A stretch of 21,550 bases of DNA from a virus. This document shows positions 1,637-14,082 of the stretch, piece after piece. Made by a program: the position numbers and the translations under genes. Numbering within the stretch: position 1 is the stretch's first letter; each line of letters opens with the position of its first letter. The DNA is taken from positions 1 to 21,550 of IMG/VR virus record IMGVR_UViG_3300044533_000533. One strand, written 5' to 3'. Under the pieces are notes generated by a model that was given only the letters and a program-made list of their open reading frames with translations, had not been told where the DNA came from and made no database searches.

Positions 1637-2566
1637 TTAAAGGGTGAAATAAACAACTTCAGATGGGAATGCAACTTGCACACCATACTTGAAAGTCAAA
1701 CGGAAACGCACTTCGTCTGAGTCCTCTGAATACCACAGCTTTGTGATTTCTTCTTCATTTGCAAGGTCAGTTCCTAAGAAGAAGTTAGACAATGAACCAG
1801 CAACAATCTTGTTTGTTCCGTTCAAACCACCAACTCCGATCAACTTCATATTAGTACCAGGATACACCATCTCCATTGTAGTAGCTGCATCAGCAACATA
1901 ATGAAACAAGTTAGCGTTCTTCAAGTTTACCAACATCAATTTGTAAGCATCGATTCCCAAGAAGCAAACCAAGTCGCTTTTCTCAGCAACGGCAGCAGGG
2001 ATGTTTGCATAAACTTGATCCAAGATTTCATCAATGTTTGCAGAAGTTACAGTTGTGAAAGTTGTTGGGGCAGCGTTTGCCAATGTTGGAGATGCAGCAG
2101 AGATGATCTTGTTCAAACCATCAAAGCGGTTCAAGTTAGGATTACCACTTGCAGTATCACCCTGCCAAAGAGCAGTTTCCAAAGTTTGTGCAATCACGGC
2201 TACCTTCTCGTTTCCAATTTGCTCTTCGAAAGGAATCATTGTTGGTGAACCAGGCATAATTTGTGTTTGCATCCACTTTGCTTCCAAAGTTTTAGGACAT
2301 AAAGTTTCTTCAACTTTCACAGCACCAACGGTGATGTTACGCTGAGTGAAGGTAGTTGTACCACTTGGATTGTATCCGCAGCCATCGGCTTGAAAGAATA
2401 CAGTTGAAGCGATGATGTTCAAGGCAGCAGATGACTTAACACCTACCTGCACCTGATTTGCAGCGTACATTGCGGCAGCAGTTTTACCGCTGAACAATGC
2501 TTTAACCAACAAGTCTGTTGATTGTTCGTTGTTGTAATTAACGAGAGATCCGACTGAAAATGCCAT
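1637..2566 (-). CDS. Major capsid protein, HK97-fold type
   Basis: A 309-residue protein with the layout of Bacteroidota-phage major capsid proteins. It has an N-terminal helical region, a central MIPFEEQIGNEKVAVI helix followed by ALWQGDT and FDGLNKII (the usual capsid 'one site, one subunit' region), and a C-terminal half rich in beta strands ending FRLTFKYGVQVAFPSEVVYF. The length is normal for the family. It directly follows an acidic coiled-coil scaffold-like gene and an XkdF-like protease gene, the expected capsid assembly set. The ATG at 2566 is preceded by TAAACTAAAACT, where the TAA is the stop of the scaffold gene. Confidence 0.88.
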   Translation of the reverse strand: MAFSVGSLVNYNNEQSTDLLVKALFSGKTAAAMYAANQVQVGVKSSAALNIIASTVFFQADGCGYNPSGTTTFTQRNITVGAVKVEETLCPKTLEAKWMQTQIMPGSPTMIPFEEQIGNEKVAVIAQTLETALWQGDTASGNPNLNRFDGLNKIISAASPTLANAAPTTFTTVTSANIDEILDQVYANIPAAVAEKSDLVCFLGIDAYKLMLVNLKNANLFHYVADAATTMEMVYPGTNMKLIGVGGLNGTNKIVAGSLSNFFLGTDLANEEEITKLWYSEDSDEVRFRLTFKYGVQVAFPSEVVYFTL

Positions 2567-2575
2567 AGTTTTAGT

Positions 2576-3109
2576 TTATTTATTTAGTGAGTTTTTTAAT
2601 CTTTTCAATGCTTCAAACTGATCATTCTTCTTGTTTGAAACGGGAGTTTTGGTTGGTTCTTCTGAAGGCAAGTCAGCAACTTTCTCGATCAAGTCGATTG
2701 CTTTGCTCATTGCTTCTTTGTGTGTGTTGTTAGATGCAGTCAATGTTGCGACCTTAGCAGTCAATTCAGCAATGGCAGTTTCCATCTTGGCAACTACTTC
2801 GTTGAATGCAGATACTGTTGCAAACTCTTCAGCTTCAATTTCAATCTCAACTTCAGGTTCAACAATCTCGGTAACGATTCCGTCAACAGTTGTCACCAAC
2901 AATCCACCTTCAACCTCGTGAGTTGCATCAGGTGCTGGGATATCACCTTCAGCAGTTTGAACGAAGATGGCAGTTCCTACCGCCAATTCGCCTTCGTAAG
3001 TGATTACAGTTCCATCAGTCAATGTGGCGGTTGCCATCTCGACTTTGATTTCTTCGTCAGAGAATCCGAGCATAGTGCGGATTTCTTTCAATGTTTCTTT
3101 TGCGTTCAT
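2576..3109 (-). CDS. Probable capsid scaffolding protein
   Basis: A 177-residue acidic protein. Residues 1-35 are helical (ETLKEIRTMLGFSDEEIKVE). Residues about 36-85 form a small beta-rich segment (TLTDGTVITYEGE, DGIVTEI), and from about 100 on there is a predicted coiled coil (VAKMETAIAELTAKVATLTA). The tail is basic and ends LKRLKNSLNK. This architecture, with a short basic C-terminus that can contact capsid protein, is typical of phage scaffolds. It sits directly upstream of the capsid gene and downstream of the protease, the usual place. Scaffold function is inferred from composition and position. Confidence 0.75.
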   Translation of the reverse strand: MNAKETLKEIRTMLGFSDEEIKVEMATATLTDGTVITYEGELAVGTAIFVQTAEGDIPAPDATHEVEGGLLVTTVDGIVTEIVEPEVEIEIEAEEFATVSAFNEVVAKMETAIAELTAKVATLTASNNTHKEAMSKAIDLIEKVADLPSEEPTKTPVSNKKNDQFEALKRLKNSLNK

Positions 3110-3148
3110 TTGTATATTAATTAGTTTTTAGTTGTAAGTGTTGCAATT

Positions 3149-4015
3149 TTACTTGCCATTCCATTGGGAAAGGATTGATTTCATTTGCTCAAGGAGTTGT
3201 TCATCAGCGTCAACGGGAAAGTCAAAAACACCCTCAACTGAGAATCCTTTGAACTCGCCTGACTTAACCTTTGCCCACACTTCTTCGTTGTCAATAAGGT
3301 ATGAAACAAACCAAGAACCATCGGCAACCTCTTCAAATCCCTTCGGTGGCATCACGCCCCGTTCACGATCAATGATGTATGATTCAAATAAACTCACGCC
3401 ATCAGCGATTGGTGTTTTGTGATGTGTGTTCACCGCATCGTACTTGTTTGACCTTGCCCACTTCTTTGCAATCTTGAAAATGCTCTCCTTGTCAAATACC
3501 ACATAGTATTCACCACGAACATCGTCCCTTCGGTAGATTGGTAGATCAGCAATCATTGCTGCTCCAGTAACGATTCGTTTCTCCTCGTCTTGAATAGCGA
3601 ATTTACTTGCTGACAATTTGCGTTCAGTCCAACTCAACATCTCTTCACCACCCCACAACAAATAAGAGATAGTCCCACAAGCGGTGTCATCATCGGGGTT
3701 GTAGTATTCCTTCGCTCTTGATAGGTATGAATAAATCCTTTGAACGGTTTCATCCGAGATGGCTTCCCCTTGTGCCAATTGTTGACCTCTTACTTTGCCG
3801 ACTTGAGTTGCACACTTGTTGCCGTTCTCCTCGTTCAATCGGATACCTCTTTCGGCATTTGCTTTCGCACCTTCAGGATAATCCGTGTAACTTGCATAAT
3901 CTTCAAATGCAAGAAAGTCCTTTTGTATGGCTGGAGTTTCTACAAGCGAAACAAACTCAATGCCTGTTTCATCGTCAAACTCGTTGATGTCTAATCGGTA
4001 TACTGGTAACTTCAT
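3149..4015 (-). CDS. XkdF-like capsid maturation protease with an inserted domain
   Basis: A 288-residue protein. The first ~35 residues (ETGIEFVSLVETPAIQKDF) and residues ~138-268 match the XkdF family of phage serine proteases: GAAMIADLPIYR, a THH motif at 197-199, VSLFESYIID at 207-216, DGSWFVSYLIDNEEVW, and GEFKGFSVEG at 253-262. His198 or 199 and a downstream Ser are candidate catalytic residues. Between these parts, residues ~46-134 form a separate segment (AKANAERGIRLNEENGN, QQLAQGEAISDET, TISYLLWGGEEM). I know this segment as a mobile domain in many phage head proteins; its role is unknown to me. Position before scaffold and capsid supports the assignment. Confidence 0.82.
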   Translation of the reverse strand: MKLPVYRLDINEFDDETGIEFVSLVETPAIQKDFLAFEDYASYTDYPEGAKANAERGIRLNEENGNKCATQVGKVRGQQLAQGEAISDETVQRIYSYLSRAKEYYNPDDDTACGTISYLLWGGEEMLSWTERKLSASKFAIQDEEKRIVTGAAMIADLPIYRRDDVRGEYYVVFDKESIFKIAKKWARSNKYDAVNTHHKTPIADGVSLFESYIIDRERGVMPPKGFEEVADGSWFVSYLIDNEEVWAKVKSGEFKGFSVEGVFDFPVDADEQLLEQMKSILSQWNGK

Positions 4016-4030
4016 CTTTCTTAAATAGCA

Positions 4031-5977
4031 CTATTTGACAACGGACACTTTTCTCGTAGTATCCACACGATCGGTTGTTCTTCGGATGTCACCTTCAGTC
4101 ACAAATACTTTGGTATCAAATTGCCCAACTGTTGGGAGAGATGAGCTGATTCTTGGTGCTGACATTTGTGGCATTCCACCTCCGTTCATTTGTGCTGGTG
4201 CTGATGCGGATGGCTGACCACCTTTCAGAATATCTTTGGCTCTCTTTGCATTGTTCAGAATCATCGCAGCAAGTGCCACATATTTTGCAATACCAGCAAT
4301 ACCACCTGTGGCGACATTGTCCGGTGATGGTGATGTTGTAGTGGTCATTGCGTTTGAGATACTCATTGCCGTATCCGCTGCGATTGTAGATAATGCCAAT
4401 ACCTTGCCCACCTTTGATTGCTCACCAGCAAGTCCGATGATTGCGTTTGCCAAACCTACCGATGCATCAAACAAATCCTGTTTGGATTGCTTCATTGCCT
4501 CATCAGCTGCAAGTGCTTTCGCTGCTGCATCCGCTTTATCTGCCGTTTCTTTCTCAAGTAAATCCTTGTTCTTCGCTGCCGTTTCCTCTGCAAGTTTCAG
4601 TTCCGCTGCATCCAGTTCCGTAAGTGCAACGATTTTCAAGTCATCATACTTTCGCTCAATGGCTGCTTTGGCTTCTGCATTGTCACCGATGGCTTTTAGT
4701 TCTGCTGCTTTCGCTTCTTCAAGTGCGGCTAATTTGTTGGTATACTCTTTGTCTATTCTCTCGCCTTCATCCGTTAATAACGCCAGTTCTTTTTGTCGTG
4801 CTGCATCCCTTGCCGATGCTTCCGCTGCCAATGTATCATCGGTGATTTTCTTTTTCTCATCAGCAAGTTTCGCAGCATCATCCAATTCCGTTTGTGCAGC
4901 ATCATCGTTAATCTTCTTTTTGTCCTCCGCTGCTTTTGTATGAATGGCATTGATTGAAAGTTGATACCCTGCGTTTGTGTTCTTTAGGGTGTTCAGTTGC
5001 TTTTTGGTTTCTGCGATTGCAACATTGGCTTCCTTTTCTACTGACTTTGGATCAAACACCATTTTTGCCAAAGTGCCACTAAATGCATCTTGTAATCCGA
5101 AATCTTGTCCCAATGCTTTTCCAACATTGTCAATTGTCGTGAGCAACATTGTAAGAGGAAATGTCAAGAACTCAATTACTCCTTTTAGGATATCTTGGTT
5201 TCTTTGAGCAGCATCCATCTGAGCTTGTTTCATCGTTTCTTGGGCGGATAATTGTGCCTCAAGTTGGGTAATGACCGCACTCGTTTGTTGTATTTTAAGT
5301 TTGAGAATTTCTTCTTCGGTCAATCCTTGCAACTTCAATATGCTATCTTGTCCGTTTAATGTATCAAGTTTGTCTTGTTCAACTTTTTCTTGTGCTTTGG
5401 AATCTGCTAAAAGTTTCTTTTGCTCGGAATCAACACCACTCACCGCCTCTTTGATGTCATCCCAATATGCCACAATAGCACCAAGAGCAACCAAGATCAA
5501 TCCGATACCTGTTGAACCGATACCGGCTTTGATTGCTGCAAATGCTTTCTTTGCACCGCTGACAACATCTTTGAAGATTGCACCGAATTGTTGTTGAATC
5601 TTTCCCAATCCTTCAAGACCTTGTGACAACGCCATTGCCCCTTGCAACTTAATCATCGTCTTCTCAAAGTCCTTCGATTCGTTTCCGAACAATGCCATTG
5701 CCCCTTGTGCTGCTGCAAATCCATTGGCAACACCCGAAACAACTGTATTTAATTTGGCAAACTTGTCGGGATTCACCGCTTTCACACGATCATTGAAATC
5801 ATCCATCCTATCCTTCGCACCGGCAAGTGCCTTCTCTGCCTTGACGGCTTCAGGTGAGAACTCACCGAACTGCATCACCGCCTGTTGAGCTGCGACTGTT
5901 AGTTCTCTAATCTCCGCCTTCATTGATTTGAAGTCGGGCTTTTTGACGGTTAAGTCAATCGTTGCGTTTAGTGCCAT
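4031..5977 (-). CDS. Tail tape measure protein
   Basis: A 648-residue protein and one of the longest in the window. It has an N-terminal helical part, a hydrophobic helical segment near residues 150-170 (IGSTGIGLILVALGAIVAYW), and a long alanine/lysine/glutamate-rich coiled coil around 330-490 with AADEKKK-like repeats. The C-terminus is Ala-rich (LALSTIAADTAMSISNAM, then AMILNNAKRAKDIL), typical of Bacteroidota-phage tape measures. Tape measure proteins set tail length and occupy the tail tube lumen. The ATG shares one base with the stop of the upstream gene (TAATG). The membrane-like segment fits the usual role in DNA ejection. The length suggests a tail of moderate size if it is a long-tailed phage. 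Confidence 0.9.
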   Translation of the reverse strand: MALNATIDLTVKKPDFKSMKAEIRELTVAAQQAVMQFGEFSPEAVKAEKALAGAKDRMDDFNDRVKAVNPDKFAKLNTVVSGVANGFAAAQGAMALFGNESKDFEKTMIKLQGAMALSQGLEGLGKIQQQFGAIFKDVVSGAKKAFAAIKAGIGSTGIGLILVALGAIVAYWDDIKEAVSGVDSEQKKLLADSKAQEKVEQDKLDTLNGQDSILKLQGLTEEEILKLKIQQTSAVITQLEAQLSAQETMKQAQMDAAQRNQDILKGVIEFLTFPLTMLLTTIDNVGKALGQDFGLQDAFSGTLAKMVFDPKSVEKEANVAIAETKKQLNTLKNTNAGYQLSINAIHTKAAEDKKKINDDAAQTELDDAAKLADEKKKITDDTLAAEASARDAARQKELALLTDEGERIDKEYTNKLAALEEAKAAELKAIGDNAEAKAAIERKYDDLKIVALTELDAAELKLAEETAAKNKDLLEKETADKADAAAKALAADEAMKQSKQDLFDASVGLANAIIGLAGEQSKVGKVLALSTIAADTAMSISNAMTTTTSPSPDNVATGGIAGIAKYVALAAMILNNAKRAKDILKGGQPSASAPAQMNGGGMPQMSAPRISSSLPTVGQFDTKVFVTEGDIRRTTDRVDTTRKVSVVK

Positions 5978-8703
5978 TATTTTTCTGCTATTATGAAGTA
6001 ATCCACGCCATCAGTTTCAAAGATGTGTGATGCCCAATGTTGATTGATTGAATGTGTATCCGCACCGTCAATCTTTGCCGTTCCAGTTGTATCAACGGTG
6101 ATGGTATGTGCGGAAGTTAATTTTTTCACTACAAATTGTTTCCCGCTTAAACCCGTTGGATCAGGCAAGGTGATTGTCTTGCTTCCACTTGTGGTATCAA
6201 CCAAAAACAATCTATCGTCTTTTGTTGCCGTTGTGTTTGCCGTTACCGTCTTGACCGAACCTCCACTCAAAAAAGATGGATACATCTCAAAGTTTCCAAT
6301 GTAGAGTGTATCGGATTTGGTGACTTCAAAGTCCGTGCAGACAAGAGCCACACTTCCATCAACGCCCACCCCAAAGACGGTGTCAATCACTCCAAGTCCT
6401 GAGTTGTTGATGTTGATTGGAGATTGGACAATTCCCGTTCCCACAAACACACCACTTCCATCGCTTTGACTTGTGCCAACGCTGATGCCTTTGATGCCCG
6501 GTTTGAATGGAAAGTTACCTGCTGGATACAAATCACCATAGGTTTCTACTTGCTCACCTCCAGCCGTTCCAGCACCCACCACTTTTATGGTTTGTGTTGC
6601 CGGTGGGATGAACTGAGCCAAAAGAAATTCGCACTCATAAACACCTTCTTCAACCGGATTGTAATCGCTGACCTTGTTCAATCTCCAATACTGACCTTCA
6701 AAGAAATACAAGTTGTTAAATCGCAAGTTGTACCAATCCGATGGTGTGATTCTGAAATAAGCTCGTACAATTTTAGAGTTCTTATTGGTGATCTCCGTGA
6801 TGAAACGATAATAGAAATTTGTGACAAGATTAAAATTGCCGTATTGATAACCAGCACCAACACCCAATTCTTTCGGCATACCAAATAGAATGTCAAAGGT
6901 CGGTGCAGTAACTGAATCGTAGTGAATCGTTATCGGCAATTTGGTTTGCGGATATACGATGGAATCCATATATGAAAACAACAACAAATCCCAATATACA
7001 TCGGATTGCAAACCACCATAATACATTATCCTCAAATCACCATCCTTCTCAGATTCCACATAACTCAACACAAAGTTCTTTTGGTTGTTGTTGTAGTTCT
7101 TGATTTGGGTAGGCGAGAACACAATGTCAATCTTCTTCTCCGTTTTTACAAAGTCATTGTCAATCTTGTATGTGCGTGAGCCATAAGTTGATTGATACAT
7201 TTCTTGATATTCTTTGTTGGATGTATCTGCTCCCTCTTTGTATGTGAAAACATAAGGGTTTGCATCAAGATCACCCATCGGAACAATCTCAACTGGTTGC
7301 GAGTAGTCCAACTTCTTTGTCCAATCCACATTCACACCATTGTAGAAATCATCACGGGGAACGATGCGAAGTATCTTCGGCTGGTCTTGGCTTGGTTCAA
7401 TGTACAAGTTGAACATCTTGACAAAGCTCATCAGCATATCGGATTGCTTGACTTCGGAGTTTAAGAACTGAGCAAAATCCGTTGTTGACCCATACCCATA
7501 ATTAAACCCAGTACAGTTGTTTTCCAAGAATGAATTGACAACCATTGCCAATGTGAATTGGGCATCAGTTAATTGATAGTTATTAACAACATTATACACC
7601 CCCATCATTTTTAATTTGACGCTATCTCCAACCAGTAGATTCTGCAAGTCAAAATGTAGGTGATACGCACGAGTTCCTCCAATCGTATTTCCAACAAGTG
7701 ATTTTTTAATCAGCTTATCATTAACATATATTCCAATACCAATTCCGAAAGTAGTGGTGAGTATTGACGGGAATATGTTACTCAACAAAAGTTCCAAGTA
7801 TGCTTCAAAGACATAGTTCCCTCCAGCAGGTACAATGTAAGCACCGGTAGTTGTGTTGTAGTTATTGCCGTTGTCGTAAAAGTTACCACCTGAATCAACA
7901 TCAAAAATCAATGTACCACCAGTTAGCAAAAGTTGACTGCTTGATCTACCTGCTTTGAACCTTCGTTGTTCCAATGTGATTGCATCAACAAGCAATCCGT
8001 TTGGTGGTGGAATCACTAAGCGTTTGAATCGGTCATTGTTGAAGAATGAATCGTTCGTGTATGAATAACCAGCGTTTGTGAATATCTTGTCAACGATGGT
8101 CTTGGCATACAGGCAAGGAGTCATTGATGGCACATCAAAGCGATTGATGTTTCTCACCGTTGAATATCCCTTGTCTATCAGGGCGTACAAATAACCTTCA
8201 CCATAGGCAAACGCTTGAGTTGTTGCGTTCTTGACAATGCTTGTATCCCAAGAATTTATCACCGTGCCACTTGACAATGTGTGATTGTATTCGCTGAAGT
8301 TCAACACATTCAATTTGCGGTCTGCGATGGTCGTGAATAGATCTGCCGTTTGTCCGTGTAGTGAACATTCATATTGGATGTCCGTTGAATCCAGCACATT
8401 GATTTGAATCAACCTGATAAATCCACGCAACTGCTCGACCTCGTCAAGCAACACCACCACATCCGCTTTCTTATTCGGATTAAAGTCAGGTGCAAACTGC
8501 GTTGTGCCTTGAATGGTTTGTTCAACCTCAAAGATGTGAGAGAATAACTTGTTGTTAGCACGAGTACCAGGAATCACAACCGTCTTTGTCCACTCACTTG
8601 ACCTTGTTTCAGGTGACTTGATGTCAGCAATTGACTTGGAGATGAGAATGTCAAAGTTGTCCGATAGGTCAACTGGTGAGTTATTAACTAATAACCTGAT
8701 CAT
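5977..8703 (-). CDS. Large tail-tip/baseplate protein with C-terminal receptor-binding-like domain
   Basis: A 908-residue protein, the longest in the window. The N-terminal ~130 residues (SKSIADIKSPETRSSEWTKT, FAPDFNPNKKADVVVL) match my recollection of a large structural protein conserved in Bacteroidota phages. The middle is rich in aromatic residues and beta strands. From about residue 815 the protein changes: KTVTANTTATKDD, TLPDPTGLSGKQFVVKK, HTITVDTTGTAKIDG and DGVDYFIIAEK form the short beta domain seen at the ends of many phage fibres. It overlaps the gene before it as ATGA and the tape measure gene by one base. Baseplate/tail-tip function with host-binding activity is inferred. Confidence 0.75.
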   Translation of the reverse strand: MIRLLVNNSPVDLSDNFDILISKSIADIKSPETRSSEWTKTVVIPGTRANNKLFSHIFEVEQTIQGTTQFAPDFNPNKKADVVVLLDEVEQLRGFIRLIQINVLDSTDIQYECSLHGQTADLFTTIADRKLNVLNFSEYNHTLSSGTVINSWDTSIVKNATTQAFAYGEGYLYALIDKGYSTVRNINRFDVPSMTPCLYAKTIVDKIFTNAGYSYTNDSFFNNDRFKRLVIPPPNGLLVDAITLEQRRFKAGRSSSQLLLTGGTLIFDVDSGGNFYDNGNNYNTTTGAYIVPAGGNYVFEAYLELLLSNIFPSILTTTFGIGIGIYVNDKLIKKSLVGNTIGGTRAYHLHFDLQNLLVGDSVKLKMMGVYNVVNNYQLTDAQFTLAMVVNSFLENNCTGFNYGYGSTTDFAQFLNSEVKQSDMLMSFVKMFNLYIEPSQDQPKILRIVPRDDFYNGVNVDWTKKLDYSQPVEIVPMGDLDANPYVFTYKEGADTSNKEYQEMYQSTYGSRTYKIDNDFVKTEKKIDIVFSPTQIKNYNNNQKNFVLSYVESEKDGDLRIMYYGGLQSDVYWDLLLFSYMDSIVYPQTKLPITIHYDSVTAPTFDILFGMPKELGVGAGYQYGNFNLVTNFYYRFITEITNKNSKIVRAYFRITPSDWYNLRFNNLYFFEGQYWRLNKVSDYNPVEEGVYECEFLLAQFIPPATQTIKVVGAGTAGGEQVETYGDLYPAGNFPFKPGIKGISVGTSQSDGSGVFVGTGIVQSPININNSGLGVIDTVFGVGVDGSVALVCTDFEVTKSDTLYIGNFEMYPSFLSGGSVKTVTANTTATKDDRLFLVDTTSGSKTITLPDPTGLSGKQFVVKKLTSAHTITVDTTGTAKIDGADTHSINQHWASHIFETDGVDYFIIAEK

Positions 8704-9833
8704 AGTCGTTGTGATTTGTCAGCAAACGACAAGGTAACATCAAGTTCAAGGTTGAACAACTTGTCTTGAACACCTTTCTTCTGCTCATAGTTGGCATTGT
8801 CAATGTTGACCGCATACAAAGTACCGTCATACATATAGACCACCGGTGATTCAATTAGATCACGCAACCAAACGGATTCGGTGTCATCAATCCAGTTTGA
8901 TGTGAGCTTCACTTTCTGACTTGCAGTTGTATGATAGTTTGATCGTGTGCGAACGCTTGTGTCATAACCGTATGTTGCACCGAGCGAGTACGGATTGGAT
9001 TGGAATTGCTTTCGTGCAACCTCAAATGTATCTCGTCTAACCATATTAAAACGGAAGGAATCAAATCCACCGAGTCGGTTCATAAAGAAGATATCCGTTG
9101 TTTCGTATTTACTGCACTCGTCTTTTATGTTGATGCGATAGGTTTCCGATTTTTCAGTTCCACCGAGTTTCAAGACGACATCAAAGAAGGTTGCTGCACC
9201 GGGTATTGTTAGTTGGCTTCCCACAGGTATTCTCACGACCTTAGACGAAGGCAATGTGAATGTTTGGGTACTTGCATCGGAGTAAGTTATTACAACGCTT
9301 GTGGCATCACCTTTCAAAGCATAGAGCCAATCCTTCTGAGTGCGATGGATGTATCTCGTTCTGACATTGGTCAAGAACTTTGCTGATGATGATGTGGCAA
9401 GATATTGAGCTTGTGCGTAGGTGACCAAATCAAAGGGATTCAAGGCAGCATTCCAAACAGTTCCAGTTGCGGAAGTCAAGTCAAGATACTCCGTGATTGT
9501 TCCCGTTGCTGATGCTGAATACTCATACCCAAACTCCACCTCGTAATCCGAGAATGAATCCACACAACCGCTTGGTGATGTATCCGTGAACGACCAGTTG
9601 TTGCTCACATAACTCTCCATTATGCGACCAATGTTGAACACCCCCTTGTTTGTACTTCCAAAATAGATGGGTGCTTTTAGTTTGGCAACGGATGTCGCTG
9701 CGACTTTGACATTTGCAATGAACTTGAAATTGTCTTTTGTGTAGATACCACCTGAAGATTCCGTGATGACAAAGTTCGTGTCGTTGAATCCAGGATGGTA
9801 ACTGTCGGGTTGTTGGGTGATTGATAGAGCCAC
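8700..9833 (-). CDS. Conserved tail/baseplate structural protein
   Basis: A 377-residue protein beginning MALSITQQPDSYHPGFND. It looks beta-rich, with segments such as DIFFMNRLGGFDSFRFNMVRR around residue 250 and a C-terminal DKLFNLELDVTLSFADKSQ. I recognise the general type as a protein found next to the 900-residue tail-tip protein in Bacteroidota phages, perhaps a distal tail or baseplate hub component. No catalytic motif is visible. Its stop overlaps the start of the 908-residue gene as ATGA, so the two are probably made together. It lies between the tail chaperone and the tail-tip gene. A portal role was considered, but the sequence does not look like one. Confidence 0.65.
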   Translation of the reverse strand: MALSITQQPDSYHPGFNDTNFVITESSGGIYTKDNFKFIANVKVAATSVAKLKAPIYFGSTNKGVFNIGRIMESYVSNNWSFTDTSPSGCVDSFSDYEVEFGYEYSASATGTITEYLDLTSATGTVWNAALNPFDLVTYAQAQYLATSSSAKFLTNVRTRYIHRTQKDWLYALKGDATSVVITYSDASTQTFTLPSSKVVRIPVGSQLTIPGAATFFDVVLKLGGTEKSETYRINIKDECSKYETTDIFFMNRLGGFDSFRFNMVRRDTFEVARKQFQSNPYSLGATYGYDTSVRTRSNYHTTASQKVKLTSNWIDDTESVWLRDLIESPVVYMYDGTLYAVNIDNANYEQKKGVQDKLFNLELDVTLSFADKSQRL

Positions 9834-9863
9834 GCTAAAAAATAGCCGATTGCCTCATTCGTT

Positions 9864-10624
9864 TCAAATCATCTCGTTCAAACAAGCCACGATGTACGGA
9901 TTGAATCCTTTCCCGGCAGCATCCTCCAAACGCTTCTGCCGTTCTTTGGTCTTGGCTTTGTAGAATGCCATTGAATTCAAGAACTCAATCAACGGCATCT
10001 GAAGAATGAAATCCCATTTGGTGCGATCACCTTTGACAATCTTGTCAACTATCTCCAGCCAAACTATTGGACTTGGGTCAACTGCTCTTTCATCTCCTTC
10101 ATCTGATCCGTCAAAGAGGAGAGGATATTTTTCAATAATTCGGGATAAACTTCCAAAAAAAAAAGAGCATAGGTGTACGGAAGTGGAACAGGCAAGTGCA
10201 TCATCAACGCACATTTGTCCTCATAGTGGGCTTGAGCATCAACGACCTTCTTGTTCCTTCCAAAAAAATCCACCTCAACCGAAAGCAAGGCAACAATCTT
10301 GTTCAACGACTCAATCACATCTCCGTTGAATACCTGCTGGAGTTCAATGAAGTGGTGACCGCACATCTCGTTTGGCGTTTTGGCTAAACGGAAGTAACGA
10401 CCACGCAGTTTGAACATAAATTGAATGGGTGCTTTTGGTAGGTCATTGAGAAACGACAACTTTGCAAACTCAATTGTGAGCTTGTCCAATGTCATTGACT
10501 CTACCTCATCCATTGAAAGATTCAAAGCGATGGCAAGGATGTTCATCTGCCTCTCAAGGTCAGACATATCACGACAAGAGTGAATCTCTTGCAGTTGGTG
10601 GATGTTTATGTTGTTCCAATTCAT
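9864..10624 (-). CDS. Tail assembly chaperone, long form made by -1 frameshift (gpGT-like)
   Basis: The ORF in frame with the stop at 9864 has no convincing start of its own; its first ~35 codons lie inside the 10064-10624 gene, one base back in frame. The two frames meet at ten T residues (minus strand, 10164-10155), where a ribosome reading CTT TTT TTT TTG can slip back and continue TTT GGA AGT. The product would be about 253 residues: the first ~156 of the short form, then SLSRIIEKYPLLF and a helical tail with KAKTKERQKRLEDAAGKGF. This is the G/GT arrangement known from tail assembly chaperones of long-tailed phages, which help the tape measure and tube proteins assemble. Confidence 0.75.
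10064..10624 (-). CDS. Tail assembly chaperone, short form (gpG-like)
   Basis: A 186-residue helical protein. I chose the ATG at 10624 (MNWNNINIHQLQ), one base after the large terminase stop. A longer reading from 10684 would lie 59 bases inside terminase and is unlikely. The sequence has an N-terminal helical part (MSDLERQMNILAIALNLSMDE), a middle CGHHFIELQQVF segment and a C-terminal helical part ending LTDQMKEMKEQLTQVQ. No enzyme motif is visible. The overlapping -1 ORF at its 3' end and the tail genes that follow point to a tail assembly chaperone. It lies much earlier than usual, directly after the large terminase and before the baseplate genes. Confidence 0.75.
   Translation of the reverse strand: MNWNNINIHQLQEIHSCRDMSDLERQMNILAIALNLSMDEVESMTLDKLTIEFAKLSFLNDLPKAPIQFMFKLRGRYFRLAKTPNEMCGHHFIELQQVFNGDVIESLNKIVALLSVEVDFFGRNKKVVDAQAHYEDKCALMMHLPVPLPYTYALFFLEVYPELLKNILSSLTDQMKEMKEQLTQVQ
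10155..10164 (-). other. Programmed -1 frameshift slippery run (ten T)
   Basis: Ten consecutive T residues on the minus strand, read as CTT TTT TTT TTG in the chaperone frame. Slipping one base back gives TTT TTT TTT GGA and enters an open frame of about 97 codons that ends at 9864. Slippage by the ribosome is the likely mechanism; RNA polymerase slippage on a 10-base homopolymer is also possible. No clear downstream pseudoknot was found by eye. Confidence 0.75.
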
Positions 10625-10625
10625 A

Positions 10626-11813
10626 TTATGCGAAGTAAAAAGTGCCTGGTCTATTATGAGCTTTGCAATCAACGGCAAGTGCAAGAGCCATCACGCAGTC
10701 ATCGTGTAGTCCGGGCGGTGCAGTATATCGCACACCCGTTCTTGTATATTCAAATTCAAAGTTCTCCATCTCACTTCCAATCGGTTCTTCAGGAAAGAAC
10801 ACATCGGTTTGCTGAACTGACATCACGAGTCCCTCAATCAACTGTTGTTTGCTTTGGCTTGTGAACTTGAATCCCTTGACCCTTTGACAAAGTCGCTGAA
10901 GTTGTTCAACGATAGGATCTCCAACACCAGTTGAATCCACAAACGATGGTGTGTTTCCAATGAGTTTAACAATCCTCGCTTGAGTGACTGACCAATCCGC
11001 TTGGAATCTTTCGCAGAAACACACACAGTTGTTTGCATCCAGTCCGATGATCACCGTGTAATCCGAGTACTTTGCCAAATCCACACCCCAAGCGACAACT
11101 GGCATTGATGAAATAGGTCGGTAACATTTGCGGATTGCATCCAAGCCAAAGGGATTTGATTTGTCATCAGCTGGTTCTGCAAGGTAGAGTTCCCGAAAGA
11201 CATAATCAGGTAGATCTCGCTTCGCTTGTTCAATCTCTTTCTCTGAGATGATGCCTTCCCTTGCAGCATCGTATGCCGTAATTTTGAAATACTTGTATTC
11301 GGATTCTCCTTGCCTTGCTCTCTCTCCTAATTTGTAGAACCAGTTCTTTTTGCCTTTGACATTCCCGATGAGTTTGCACTTGCCTTGTGTAGCGGTCAGC
11401 GTTGAACGGAGTGCATACCACGATTCCTCACGCATCCTTGATGCCTCATCAATCACGGCAGCGTACACATCATCTCCGTACAGGTTGTCCGGTTTCTCAC
11501 CCGATTTGAATTCTATCCTTGCACCCGTTGGTAAGGTCAACAATAGTTTGGTTTCGTTGCTGATAAAGAAGTTCTTGTCCGTGACTTGGTTCTTCATCCT
11601 GCGGAATGCAATCTCCGCTTGTTGGTATACTGGAGCAACCCACCACACCGACTGCCCATCCTTGCATTGGAGTGCTTGTTCAAAGAGCCAAATGATATGT
11701 GATGCCGTCTTGCCTGTCTTGGTACTCGCAGCCGTAATCGTGAAACGGGCATCGCAATCAAGGATGTCCTTTTGGTAGTTGGTTAGATATGGTCGTGTGT
11801 AGTTTATTTGCAC
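10626..11813 (-). CDS. terL: Terminase large subunit (packaging ATPase-nuclease)
   Basis: A 395-residue protein with the full large-terminase layout. The N-terminal ATPase has Walker A AASTKTGKTAS (28-38), Walker B AAVIDEAS (118-125, Asp122/Glu123) and a coupling-motif region LTATQGKCKLIGN. The C-terminal RNase H-fold nuclease has acidic residues at GVDLA (Asp245), FVDST (Asp293) and LHDDCVMALA (Asp371/372). It cuts concatemeric phage DNA and pumps it into the procapsid. It starts with GTG at 11813, overlapping the glycosyltransferase stop by ten bases. Length is slightly short for the family but no motif is missing. Confidence 0.95.
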   Translation of the reverse strand: MQINYTRPYLTNYQKDILDCDARFTITAASTKTGKTASHIIWLFEQALQCKDGQSVWWVAPVYQQAEIAFRRMKNQVTDKNFFISNETKLLLTLPTGARIEFKSGEKPDNLYGDDVYAAVIDEASRMREESWYALRSTLTATQGKCKLIGNVKGKKNWFYKLGERARQGESEYKYFKITAYDAAREGIISEKEIEQAKRDLPDYVFRELYLAEPADDKSNPFGLDAIRKCYRPISSMPVVAWGVDLAKYSDYTVIIGLDANNCVCFCERFQADWSVTQARIVKLIGNTPSFVDSTGVGDPIVEQLQRLCQRVKGFKFTSQSKQQLIEGLVMSVQQTDVFFPEEPIGSEMENFEFEYTRTGVRYTAPPGLHDDCVMALALAVDCKAHNRPGTFYFA

Positions 11814-12793
11814 AACGATTTGTATAACTGCAATCGGGTTAGGTTGTGGAGTTCAAGGTTGTGATGCTTTTTGCAGTAGTCGTAGTTGCTTTGACCCATT
11901 GACTGACGAACTCCGTGACCGGCATCAATCAACTTCTGAATGCCTGATCTCCATTGATTGCGTGGAAGAAATAGCACCCCATCGTTTGCGGTGTGATAGA
12001 GGTAAGGCAAGACGGCAGAACAAATGATTGGCTTTTTGTAGGCACTCGCTTCCAGTATTTTCAGCTCAGATTTGCAGTTGTTGAACTTGGTATTTTGCAA
12101 GGGTGCAACCACGATGTCAAAGTGCTTGTACACCTCACCATATTCAAACACGGTTGTGCCTTCAACAATCTTAGCATCGGGCATACTCTTGGCAATCCGA
12201 TTCCAAATCTCTCCTGGTGTATAACCGCAGATGTAGAACTCAATGTCCATTCCTTTGATCTCCTCAGCAATGAGCTTCAAGTCCTCCTCGTGTGTAACTC
12301 CACCCACCCATCCGACCTTCACTTTGTCGGTTCTTGGTTGTGGTTCGGCTTCCCATTGTTTGTGGGTTAGGTCAAGGCAATTGGAAACAACAGTCACATT
12401 CTCGTTGATCTGCCGAATCTCTTTGGCAAGTGCTGGAGTTGTGGTAATCACCGCATCAGCGTAATTGATGGCATCCTTTACGCCTTGCTTGATTCCTTTG
12501 CGATAGTTCCAATATGCAGGGTTGTATTTTGGTAGCACCCAATAATCGTCAATGTCCACGACATAGGGAGTGCCTGAATCAGCAATCTTCTTCAACACAT
12601 CATAATGCTTTGCACCAAGCCATCGTGAGAAGATGATCACATCAAATTGGGTGTAATCAAGTGTGAGCCATTCCTCTTGTGATTGGCAAACGCTGACATC
12701 CGCTTGTCCGTCAAGTTGCATCCGTAAGTGTGGCGTGAATAGTCGGTGGTAAACAACACCATTCATTCCGTCAGTTAATATCAGTAATTTCAT
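11804..12793 (-). CDS. Glycosyltransferase, GT-B fold, family 4-like
   Basis: A 329-residue protein. It opens MKLLILTDGMNGVVYHRL, and the first half is Rossmann-like with YVVDIDDYWVLP near 77-87. The second half has GWVGG at 161-165, then FDIVVAPLQNT (225-235) and KSELKILEASAYKKPII (241-257), which resembles the nucleotide-sugar binding region of GT4 enzymes with its paired acidic residues. Such enzymes move a sugar from a nucleotide donor to an acceptor. It is in an ATGA overlap with a GT9-like gene and lies between small and large terminase, suggesting modification of a virion protein, DNA or host envelope sugars. The acceptor cannot be read from sequence. Confidence 0.82.
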   Translation of the reverse strand: MKLLILTDGMNGVVYHRLFTPHLRMQLDGQADVSVCQSQEEWLTLDYTQFDVIIFSRWLGAKHYDVLKKIADSGTPYVVDIDDYWVLPKYNPAYWNYRKGIKQGVKDAINYADAVITTTPALAKEIRQINENVTVVSNCLDLTHKQWEAEPQPRTDKVKVGWVGGVTHEEDLKLIAEEIKGMDIEFYICGYTPGEIWNRIAKSMPDAKIVEGTTVFEYGEVYKHFDIVVAPLQNTKFNNCKSELKILEASAYKKPIICSAVLPYLYHTANDGVLFLPRNQWRSGIQKLIDAGHGVRQSMGQSNYDYCKKHHNLELHNLTRLQLYKSLCK

Positions 12794-13533
12794 AGAGTTT
12801 TCAGTAGGTGATTAAAAGCTTGATTCGTTACATAGTCAAAGCCATTGTTGATGGGGATGACATTCGGTGAGTGAACGCATATCTCAAGCAATCGTTTTAC
12901 CTTCATTTGTTCTGCAATGGCGTAAGTGCTTGACTGATTTCCGATGAATGCCTTGCAACTGCCGACAATGGTTGCCAACATCAAAGCATCTTGGCATTTC
13001 AATAGTTCACAATCTAACTGCCATCTATCCGTGAATGCATTGTACTCATCTTCATAGCCAAAGAAAACGCACTTGTGTTCTTTGAGTGGGAAATAGTTGA
13101 TGTCGTAATTGCGATAACGAGATGTAAAATTCAAAAGTATCTTGTCCGCAAAGTATGGGATAGGTTCAGTCGCTTCAATGCAAGGTTCGTGAAGGTCGGA
13201 CATCAATTCCGGGTACACAAGAAACTGATTACGCCTCAAATCACCAGCAGCGAGATTCAACCTGTGATTCCTAAACTTATCAAAGTCATAATCAATGTCG
13301 GGGTGTGAGTGCATCTGAACGCTTTTAATGTACGATTGATGCTCAAGCAAAGGTTTGATGTATTCGTATGATTTTAAGTTCATACAGTATCCTCCGCTTG
13401 GATGCCCGGAAACAGTATTCTGCTCACGGAATCCGATGTGAAAATCTACCGCACCGTGCAACTCCGCAACTCGCTTGGTTGCCGTAAGTGAATAGATCAA
13501 ATCACCGAGATGCCCTGATTGAATTACTTTCAT
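12790..13533 (-). CDS. GT9 (heptosyltransferase-like) glycosyltransferase
   Basis: A 247-residue protein with the opening SGHLGDLIYSL (6-16), which matches the conserved N-terminal G-x-[LI]-GD motif of the GT9/ADP-heptose:LPS heptosyltransferase family. The C-terminal part has ATIVGSCKAFIGNQSSTY (187-204), the family's donor-binding region (usual form: ...A...F.GN.SG..H.A). The length is short compared with about 330-350 residues in bacterial heptosyltransferases, mostly in the middle. It overlaps the next glycosyltransferase by ATGA, so the two likely act together. It may alter host surface glycans or decorate the virion; the donor sugar is unknown. Confidence 0.75.
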   Translation of the reverse strand: MKVIQSGHLGDLIYSLTATKRVAELHGAVDFHIGFREQNTVSGHPSGGYCMNLKSYEYIKPLLEHQSYIKSVQMHSHPDIDYDFDKFRNHRLNLAAGDLRRNQFLVYPELMSDLHEPCIEATEPIPYFADKILLNFTSRYRNYDINYFPLKEHKCVFFGYEDEYNAFTDRWQLDCELLKCQDALMLATIVGSCKAFIGNQSSTYAIAEQMKVKRLLEICVHSPNVIPINNGFDYVTNQAFNHLLKTL

Positions 13534-13715
13534 TCGTTTGGTAATAACGGGATGGGCATCCAGTACAACATATTAATCACCGTTAATTCATACTCATCTA
13601 CCCAATCCCCTTCAATAAAACGGGCAAGGTGTTTCAGTCCTTTGACCGAATGCACGATGCACAATCTTTCATCCTCAGGTGGTAGGATGTTCTGATCTCT
13701 CCAGTTTGCTCTCAT
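13530..13715 (-). CDS. Small DUF551-like protein
   Basis: A 61-residue protein with the pattern of DUF551. It has a Trp near the N-terminus followed by LPPEDERLCIVHS, then GDWVDEYE, and the ending YWMPIPLLP, where the family usually ends HWMPLPxPP. DUF551 proteins are common in phages and prophages and their function is unknown. The start at 13715 lies 41 bases inside the preceding gene, an unusually long overlap, but the Trp and LP residues that define the family are near the start, so a shorter reading would lose the domain. Its stop overlaps the GT9 gene as ATGA. Confidence 0.72.
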   Translation of the reverse strand: MRANWRDQNILPPEDERLCIVHSVKGLKHLARFIEGDWVDEYELTVINMLYWMPIPLLPNE

Positions 13716-14082
13716 CTAAATTTAGTGTTATTGTGAAGTTCTTTGATTCTATTGTTTGGTCAATGGTTTCCTTTGGTTTGCCTTGTGATCGTGTGAGCAA
13801 CATCTCCAAGTTGAACAGGGAGTTTTTGTCGTGACCCTTCAGCAATGCACCGGCAATCGTGCGTTCCATTATTGTGTACTCATCCCCTTTGTCTATCTTC
13901 TCCAGTTCTTTCCGTGATAGCGAAAGCATTGACAACATCGTTTCCTCAACTTGTGTTTTGGTGTATCCGATGTCCTTCATCAATGTGATGAGCTTCTTTG
14001 GTCTGCCGTTCGGATTCAACACTTCACCTTTGTCAGGTCGTGTCAAAGTTCCTCCGTTTCTTCCTGGTACTTGTGTTGCCAT
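13675..14082 (-). CDS. terS: Probable terminase small subunit (GRPKK-type)
   Basis: A 135-residue basic protein with a flexible N-terminus carrying NPNGRPKK (24-31), a short basic motif common at the start of phage small terminases and DUF5681-type proteins. It is followed by helical segments GYTKTQVEETMLSML and ERTIAGALLKG, then LEMLLTRSQGKPKE. Small terminases bind phage DNA and direct the large subunit to the cutting site. Position between an HNH gene and the large terminase (separated by the glycosyltransferases) supports the call. The 20-base gap upstream holds a direct repeat around ATTCGTAA and no clear ribosome binding site. Confidence 0.7.
   Translation of the reverse strand: MATQVPGRNGGTLTRPDKGEVLNPNGRPKKLITLMKDIGYTKTQVEETMLSMLSLSRKELEKIDKGDEYTIMERTIAGALLKGHDKNSLFNLEMLLTRSQGKPKETIDQTIESKNFTITLNLDESKLERSEHPTT

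Follow-up and report, generated by a model that had tools for sequence, protein, structure and literature searches.

A T-run slip site kept across distantly related phages very likely yields two forms of a putative tail assembly chaperone

In the virus represented by IMG/VR record IMGVR_UViG_3300044533_000533, a -1 slip on a run of T very likely lets one gene give two versions of a helper protein for tail building, as judged from the sequence of positions 1 to 21,550 of the record, the 21,550-nucleotide stretch called the window here. We give a probability of about 70% to the reading in which a 186-aa G-like protein and a 253-aa fusion arise by programmed -1 slippage, most likely ribosomal, and play roles like those of G and GT in long-tailed phages.

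Two overlapping frames next to the terminase gene

The G-like 0-frame gene, a putative tail assembly chaperone, lies on the minus strand at 10064..10624 (ATG at 10624, TAG at 10066-10064) and encodes 186 aa. Directly upstream is the gene for the terminase large subunit (TerL, 10626..11813, minus strand), and the ATG of G is one base past the TerL stop codon (10628-10626). TerL is the upstream neighbour of G also in distant relatives and in Nonlabens phage P12024S. G contains a run of ten T (10155..10164, minus strand; nine T in most relatives), and the next longest homopolymer of the window has eight nucleotides. The run is read in the 0 frame as GCT CTT TTT TTT TTG and holds the slippery heptamer T_TTT_TTT in 0-frame phase (10157..10163, minus strand). 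As the initial annotation stated, G and an open -1 frame meet at this run (10164-10155), and the -1 frame stays open for 97 codons past the slip. This extension, which holds the T-like domain, would be read after a slip from 9864..10157 on the minus strand and ends with a stop at 9866-9864. A fusion made by slippage has 253 aa, 156 codons from G and 97 from the -1 frame. The 94 nt that follow the slip (10064..10157, minus strand) would code for both the G tail and the T domain.

Two genes (9833-8700 and 8703-5977) stand between G and a candidate for the tape measure protein (4031..5977, minus strand; 648 aa; phrog_24676, E 7.6e-8). Within 1637-14082 of the window, the tail genes sit between TerL and the head genes. 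By eye, 14082-13675 is the likely small terminase gene, and two glycosyltransferase-like genes (13533-12790 and 12793-11804) occupy the interval between it and TerL. Rfam and tRNA scans gave no matches.

The G product is encoded by at least 106 viral contigs. The 58 distinct near sequences form two clades with about 69% identity, 33 of them with ten T and 25 with nine, and the stops and the -1 overlap are identical in all 58. The two run lengths differ by a C-to-T substitution, with no indel. Beyond the G stop, the two nearest clades differ in the -1 frame by 0.22/0.09/0.51 at codon positions 1/2/3, a coding-type pattern which indicates that this frame is translated past the G stop. The overlap gives 0.29/0.29/0.27, and because the three codon positions diverge equally, both frames appear to be constrained there. 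From the G stop to a conserved Met the values are 0.17/0.18/0.44; this coding-type divergence lies upstream of the internal ATG, and translation would therefore enter the frame upstream of that ATG.

Conservation of the slip site

Distant relatives were collected independently of the slip site, by scanning with a degenerate terminase motif, and at least 120 loci were returned. All 81 listed loci in which both ORFs were found have exactly nine T in the same phase with the second frame in -1, at G identities down to 33%. Further scans with other G alignments led to 186 distinct family sites among the matches listed. As the collections were sampled by motifs, the 80-120 loci per scan are lower bounds, and the counts are of distinct sequences and not of independent events, many contigs coming from related metagenomes.

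The comparison of run length in relatives proposed by the initial annotation gave T9 at 129 of the 186 distinct sites, T10 at 35 (the window's clade) and T6 at 22 (19 in clade B and three in clade C). The -1 overlap is retained at all 186, and the G/GT-like arrangement proposed at the outset is thus kept in all relatives with both frames readable. Clade B reads TCT TTT TTC TTG, that is T_TTT_TTC. Clade C reads GTT TTT TCT TTG (T_TTT_TCT), keeps the -1 overlap and has no strict XXXYYYZ heptamer. Such a heptamer, either T_TTT_TTT or T_TTT_TTC, stands in phase at 183 of the 186 distinct sites, the window included, and in nearly every T9 relative from this first family the overlap contains no XXXYYYZ heptamer besides T_TTT_TTT. 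The earlier description of the slip site as a homopolymer is therefore borne out by the conserved T run and refined as to the slippery unit, the heptamer T_TTT_TTT with T_TTT_TTC as its form in one clade. A tree built without an outgroup places clades B and C together as sisters (support 90/76) nested within T9 clades, so T9 is likely the older state. The ten T first taken as the site hold for the window and represent a derived state of one clade in a family whose norm is nine.

The codons used at the site are nearly fixed. The first Phe is TTT in 186/186 sites. For the second, 164 sites use TTT and 19 use TTC, the latter all from clade B. Elsewhere, most conserved Phe columns either mix the two codons or are rich in TTC, for example 134 TTC versus 52 TTT. 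A control Phe-Phe pair in the same gene, conserved in 59/59 near sequences (window included), is encoded by TTTTTT in 2/59, compared with 59/59 at the slip site. The T run, its phase and the -1 extension, present in all relatives with both frames readable, are conserved far beyond chance. G also has a second in-phase T_TTT_TTT (VDFFG; 10268-10262 in the window), present in 2/59 near sequences; the -1 frame soon stops there, and slippage at that point would yield a dead-end product. No family member turned up when the viral collection was searched by pattern for TTC at one or the other Phe; the patterns were too narrow, since clade B, which was found by protein, also alters the flanking codons. 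Two scans of genome contigs revealed no host-integrated relative.

A second family was reached through protein structure. The folded G model (pLDDT 86), compared with viral models, matched I6R9M9 of Nonlabens phage P12024S (E 1e-7). In this phage the matched gene, gp38, lies directly after TerL and has T9 in the same phase with the -1 frame open, and the site in P12024L is alike in T9, phase and open -1 frame. The two cultured phages resemble the window in these features and differ from it in their records, in which the halves are two separate hypothetical proteins (P12024S, NC_018271.1 23136-23830, gp38/gp39; P12024L, NC_018272.1 22700-26500, gp40/gp41). PHROGs also split the halves (phrog_32199, phrog_38404). 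We believe that gp38/gp39 and gp40/gp41 are probably each one frameshifted gene annotated as two. All 36 distinct sites of the second family have T9 (one T10) in phase, with GTT, CTT, ATT or TTT before the two Phe codons and TAT or TAC after them. Comparison of the family profiles gave 97.5% probability for G (E 8e-12), with the slip sites aligned, and 96.4% for T (E 1.3e-9), and on these scores the two families are homologous. G has diverged to about 15% identity in the profile alignment while the homopolymer slip site has stayed constant. In the second family, the dual-coding stretch beyond the run, shared by G and the -1 frame, is as long as about 260 nt, which is long for a tail chaperone frameshift.

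Entry into the second frame

The initial annotation saw no credible start for the -1 frame, and the relatives agree with it. In 99 of the 129 distinct T9-type relatives, no ATG, GTG or TTG occurs in this frame between its upstream stop and a point 75 nt beyond the site; an ATG within these last 75 nt is found in none of the sequences, and the window has one -1-frame ATG upstream of the run, at 10214. If the downstream frame were a separate gene with its own start, reached by internal initiation or by reinitiation after the G stop, the ATG conserved inside the T domain (MPLIEFLN) would be the natural candidate, and the annotators of P12024S and P12024L called a separate 55-aa ORF there. However, the coding-type conservation of the frame starts upstream of this ATG, and both the start-free T9 members and the fixed Phe codons of the slip site argue against a separate gene, which we hold to be very improbable. 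Still less weight is due to a sequencing error or a decayed single-frame gene. Homopolymers are prone to error, but 35 distinct sequences of the window's clade share the run and the frames, and the -1 overlap recurs at 151 other distinct family sites and at 36 of the second family, including those of the cultured P12024S and P12024L. Sequencing error was excluded, given T10 in 35 distinct sequences and no run length that joins the frames. Non-overlapping frames, an independent conserved start and a run length joining the frames, the outcomes named by the initial annotation as contrary to its proposal, were found in none of the relatives.

For ribosomal slippage, a minority of ribosomes would slip back one base on U_UUU_UUU, where both tRNA-Phe could re-pair on UUU, and the resulting fusion would carry the C-terminal T-like domain. 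The nine T consist of the heptamer plus one second-codon-position T on each side. The 5' flanking T belongs to the residue of G that precedes the Phe pair (Leu, Val, Ile or Phe; Ser in clade B, where this T is lost) and the 3' flanking T to the first residue of the fusion (Phe or Leu). Since the flanking T encode hydrophobic residues, no requirement for run length is needed to account for nine T. Because clade B has trimmed the run to U_UUU_UUC and the nine T are otherwise explained, we favour ribosomal -1 slippage on U_UUU_UUU over slippage of RNA polymerase. The slip would proceed without a downstream RNA structure or a Shine-Dalgarno-like stimulator: no conserved downstream RNA structure was found (energy of the consensus fold 0, weak z-scores averaging about -0.2 to -0.5), and an element resembling Shine-Dalgarno upstream of the site was seen in 0/24 representatives. 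Such stimulators are common at -1 sites but not obligatory at those of low efficiency. Their lack counts against ribosomal slippage, as do the clade C site and the weakness of U_UUU_UUU in E. coli, where synthetic constructs shift much less on it than on A_AAA_AAG (PMC5009743).

RNA polymerase slippage, the alternative that the initial annotation had named, would add one U (or drop two) on the T run; ribosomes would then read the altered mRNA normally, and the fusion would have the identical sequence. T9 and T10 are within the lengths where bacterial RNA polymerase slips, with a threshold at T9 (PMC1088944, PMC5009743, PMC6260861), and A/T runs are selected against from nine nt in many bacterial genomes (PMC1088944). 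Runs of about nine or more are present at 164 of the 186 distinct family sites (T9/T10) and in 36/36 of the second family, and the lack of translational stimulators also suits this route, which is possible for T9 and T10. It is disfavoured by clades B and C, which hold the -1 overlap with six T (22/186), and clade B preserves exactly the ribosomal heptamer. Furthermore, hydrophobic residues account for the T on either side of the heptamer, and an upstream terminator-like hairpin is absent on average. About 0.8% insertion at T6 has been reported for the E. coli polymerase (PMC6260861), and six T thus weaken this route short of an outright exclusion. Overall, we consider it unlikely that the polymerase produces the fusion, and slightly more doubtful that polymerase slippage on T9/T10 is the main route in most of the group with clade B having switched to ribosomal U_UUU_UUC. 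If that were true, the ratio of a phage tail chaperone would be set by transcription, and the group would show one recoding mechanism naturally replaced by another at the same site.

The RNA polymerase of E. coli prefers poly(T) (PMC6260861). Shigella mxiE, whose T9 is a known site of transcriptional slippage, and Thermus dnaX (A9) are similar to the present gene in that nine A/T lead to two C-termini. Unlike them, the gene here is a phage gene, and some of its relatives carry six T as a ribosomal heptamer. The dnaX family, with a ribosomal shift in E. coli and transcriptional slippage in Thermus, is a parallel for homologous genes that may reach one product through run-type or heptamer-type sites.

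Putative role in tail assembly

The name tail assembly chaperone, used in the initial annotation, is retained as putative on the architecture and context of the gene. The downstream frame overlaps the upstream ORF in the -1 register, close to where the latter ends, and a conserved slippery sequence in the correct phase lies inside the overlap. Proteins of the lambda G/GT type are absent from virions. In lambda, G acts on the tape measure and GT recruits tail tube subunits (PMC5009743); by analogy, the short form would probably coat the tape measure protein and the long form would probably recruit the major tail protein. The usual G/GT position between the genes for the major tail protein and the tape measure, mostly just ahead of the tape measure gene, is not matched, as TerL is upstream and two genes intervene before the tape measure candidate. 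Sequence and fold searches of the PDB gave no match, and no curated family matched. When folded apart, G has pLDDT 86 and T 63, the T model being of low confidence. Matches to viral structures named tail assembly chaperone are weak (E 0.09 and 0.5), and so is a single-member PHROG match to a 'tail protein'. The products could also be another structural or assembly protein pair with a G/GT-like frameshift, compatible with either slippage mechanism. Such a pair would agree with the place next to TerL and two genes ahead of the tape measure candidate, with the head genes lying downstream of the tail genes in the window and with the lack of a convincing family or PDB match. Two overlapping products, a short and mainly helical C-terminal extension and the tail gene cluster point the other way, as do the weak matches above, and we judge a pair of this kind improbable beside the chaperone.

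As in lambda gpG/gpGT and the chaperones of other long-tailed phages, two products in overlapping frames would result from a -1 slip near the end of the upstream ORF, in an arrangement conserved despite little sequence similarity. The lambda products have a 30:1 ratio (PMC5009743), and a low-efficiency shift would suffice here too. In contrast to lambda, the slip site here is a T9/T10 run (U_UUU_UUU), the gene follows TerL two genes upstream of the tape measure candidate, and in the second family the extension overlaps the G frame for up to about 87 codons. With the tools used, no similarity to known chaperones in sequence or solved fold was detected. Homopolymer slip motifs have some precedent in tail chaperones, and a motif called 'six' is among those in annotated phage frameshifts in the PRFect study (PMC10885494). 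A literature search with partial coverage found no description of this site in Bacteroidota phages.

Of 16 gene starts tested within the window, none had a Shine-Dalgarno-like motif. This result and the flavobacterial relatives suggest that the host belongs to the Bacteroidota; the host bacteria are probably freshwater. In Flavobacterium phage 11b (NC_006356.2 17864-18528), an A run of about nine lies just before the gp38 stop, and the -1 frame continues for another 108 codons immediately before the large gp40, making gp38 a possible A-run G/GT site.

Taken at the strength given above, these results would add a large group of uncultivated phages, along with two cultured Flavobacteriia phages, to those with recoding of the G/GT type. 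The trick is known in phages; the site is unusual, and it has been kept almost unchanged across very distant relatives. With T9, T10 and a T6 heptamer at one homologous site, in hosts apparently without use of Shine-Dalgarno signals, the group offers a natural experiment by which ribosomal and transcriptional slippage could be told apart.
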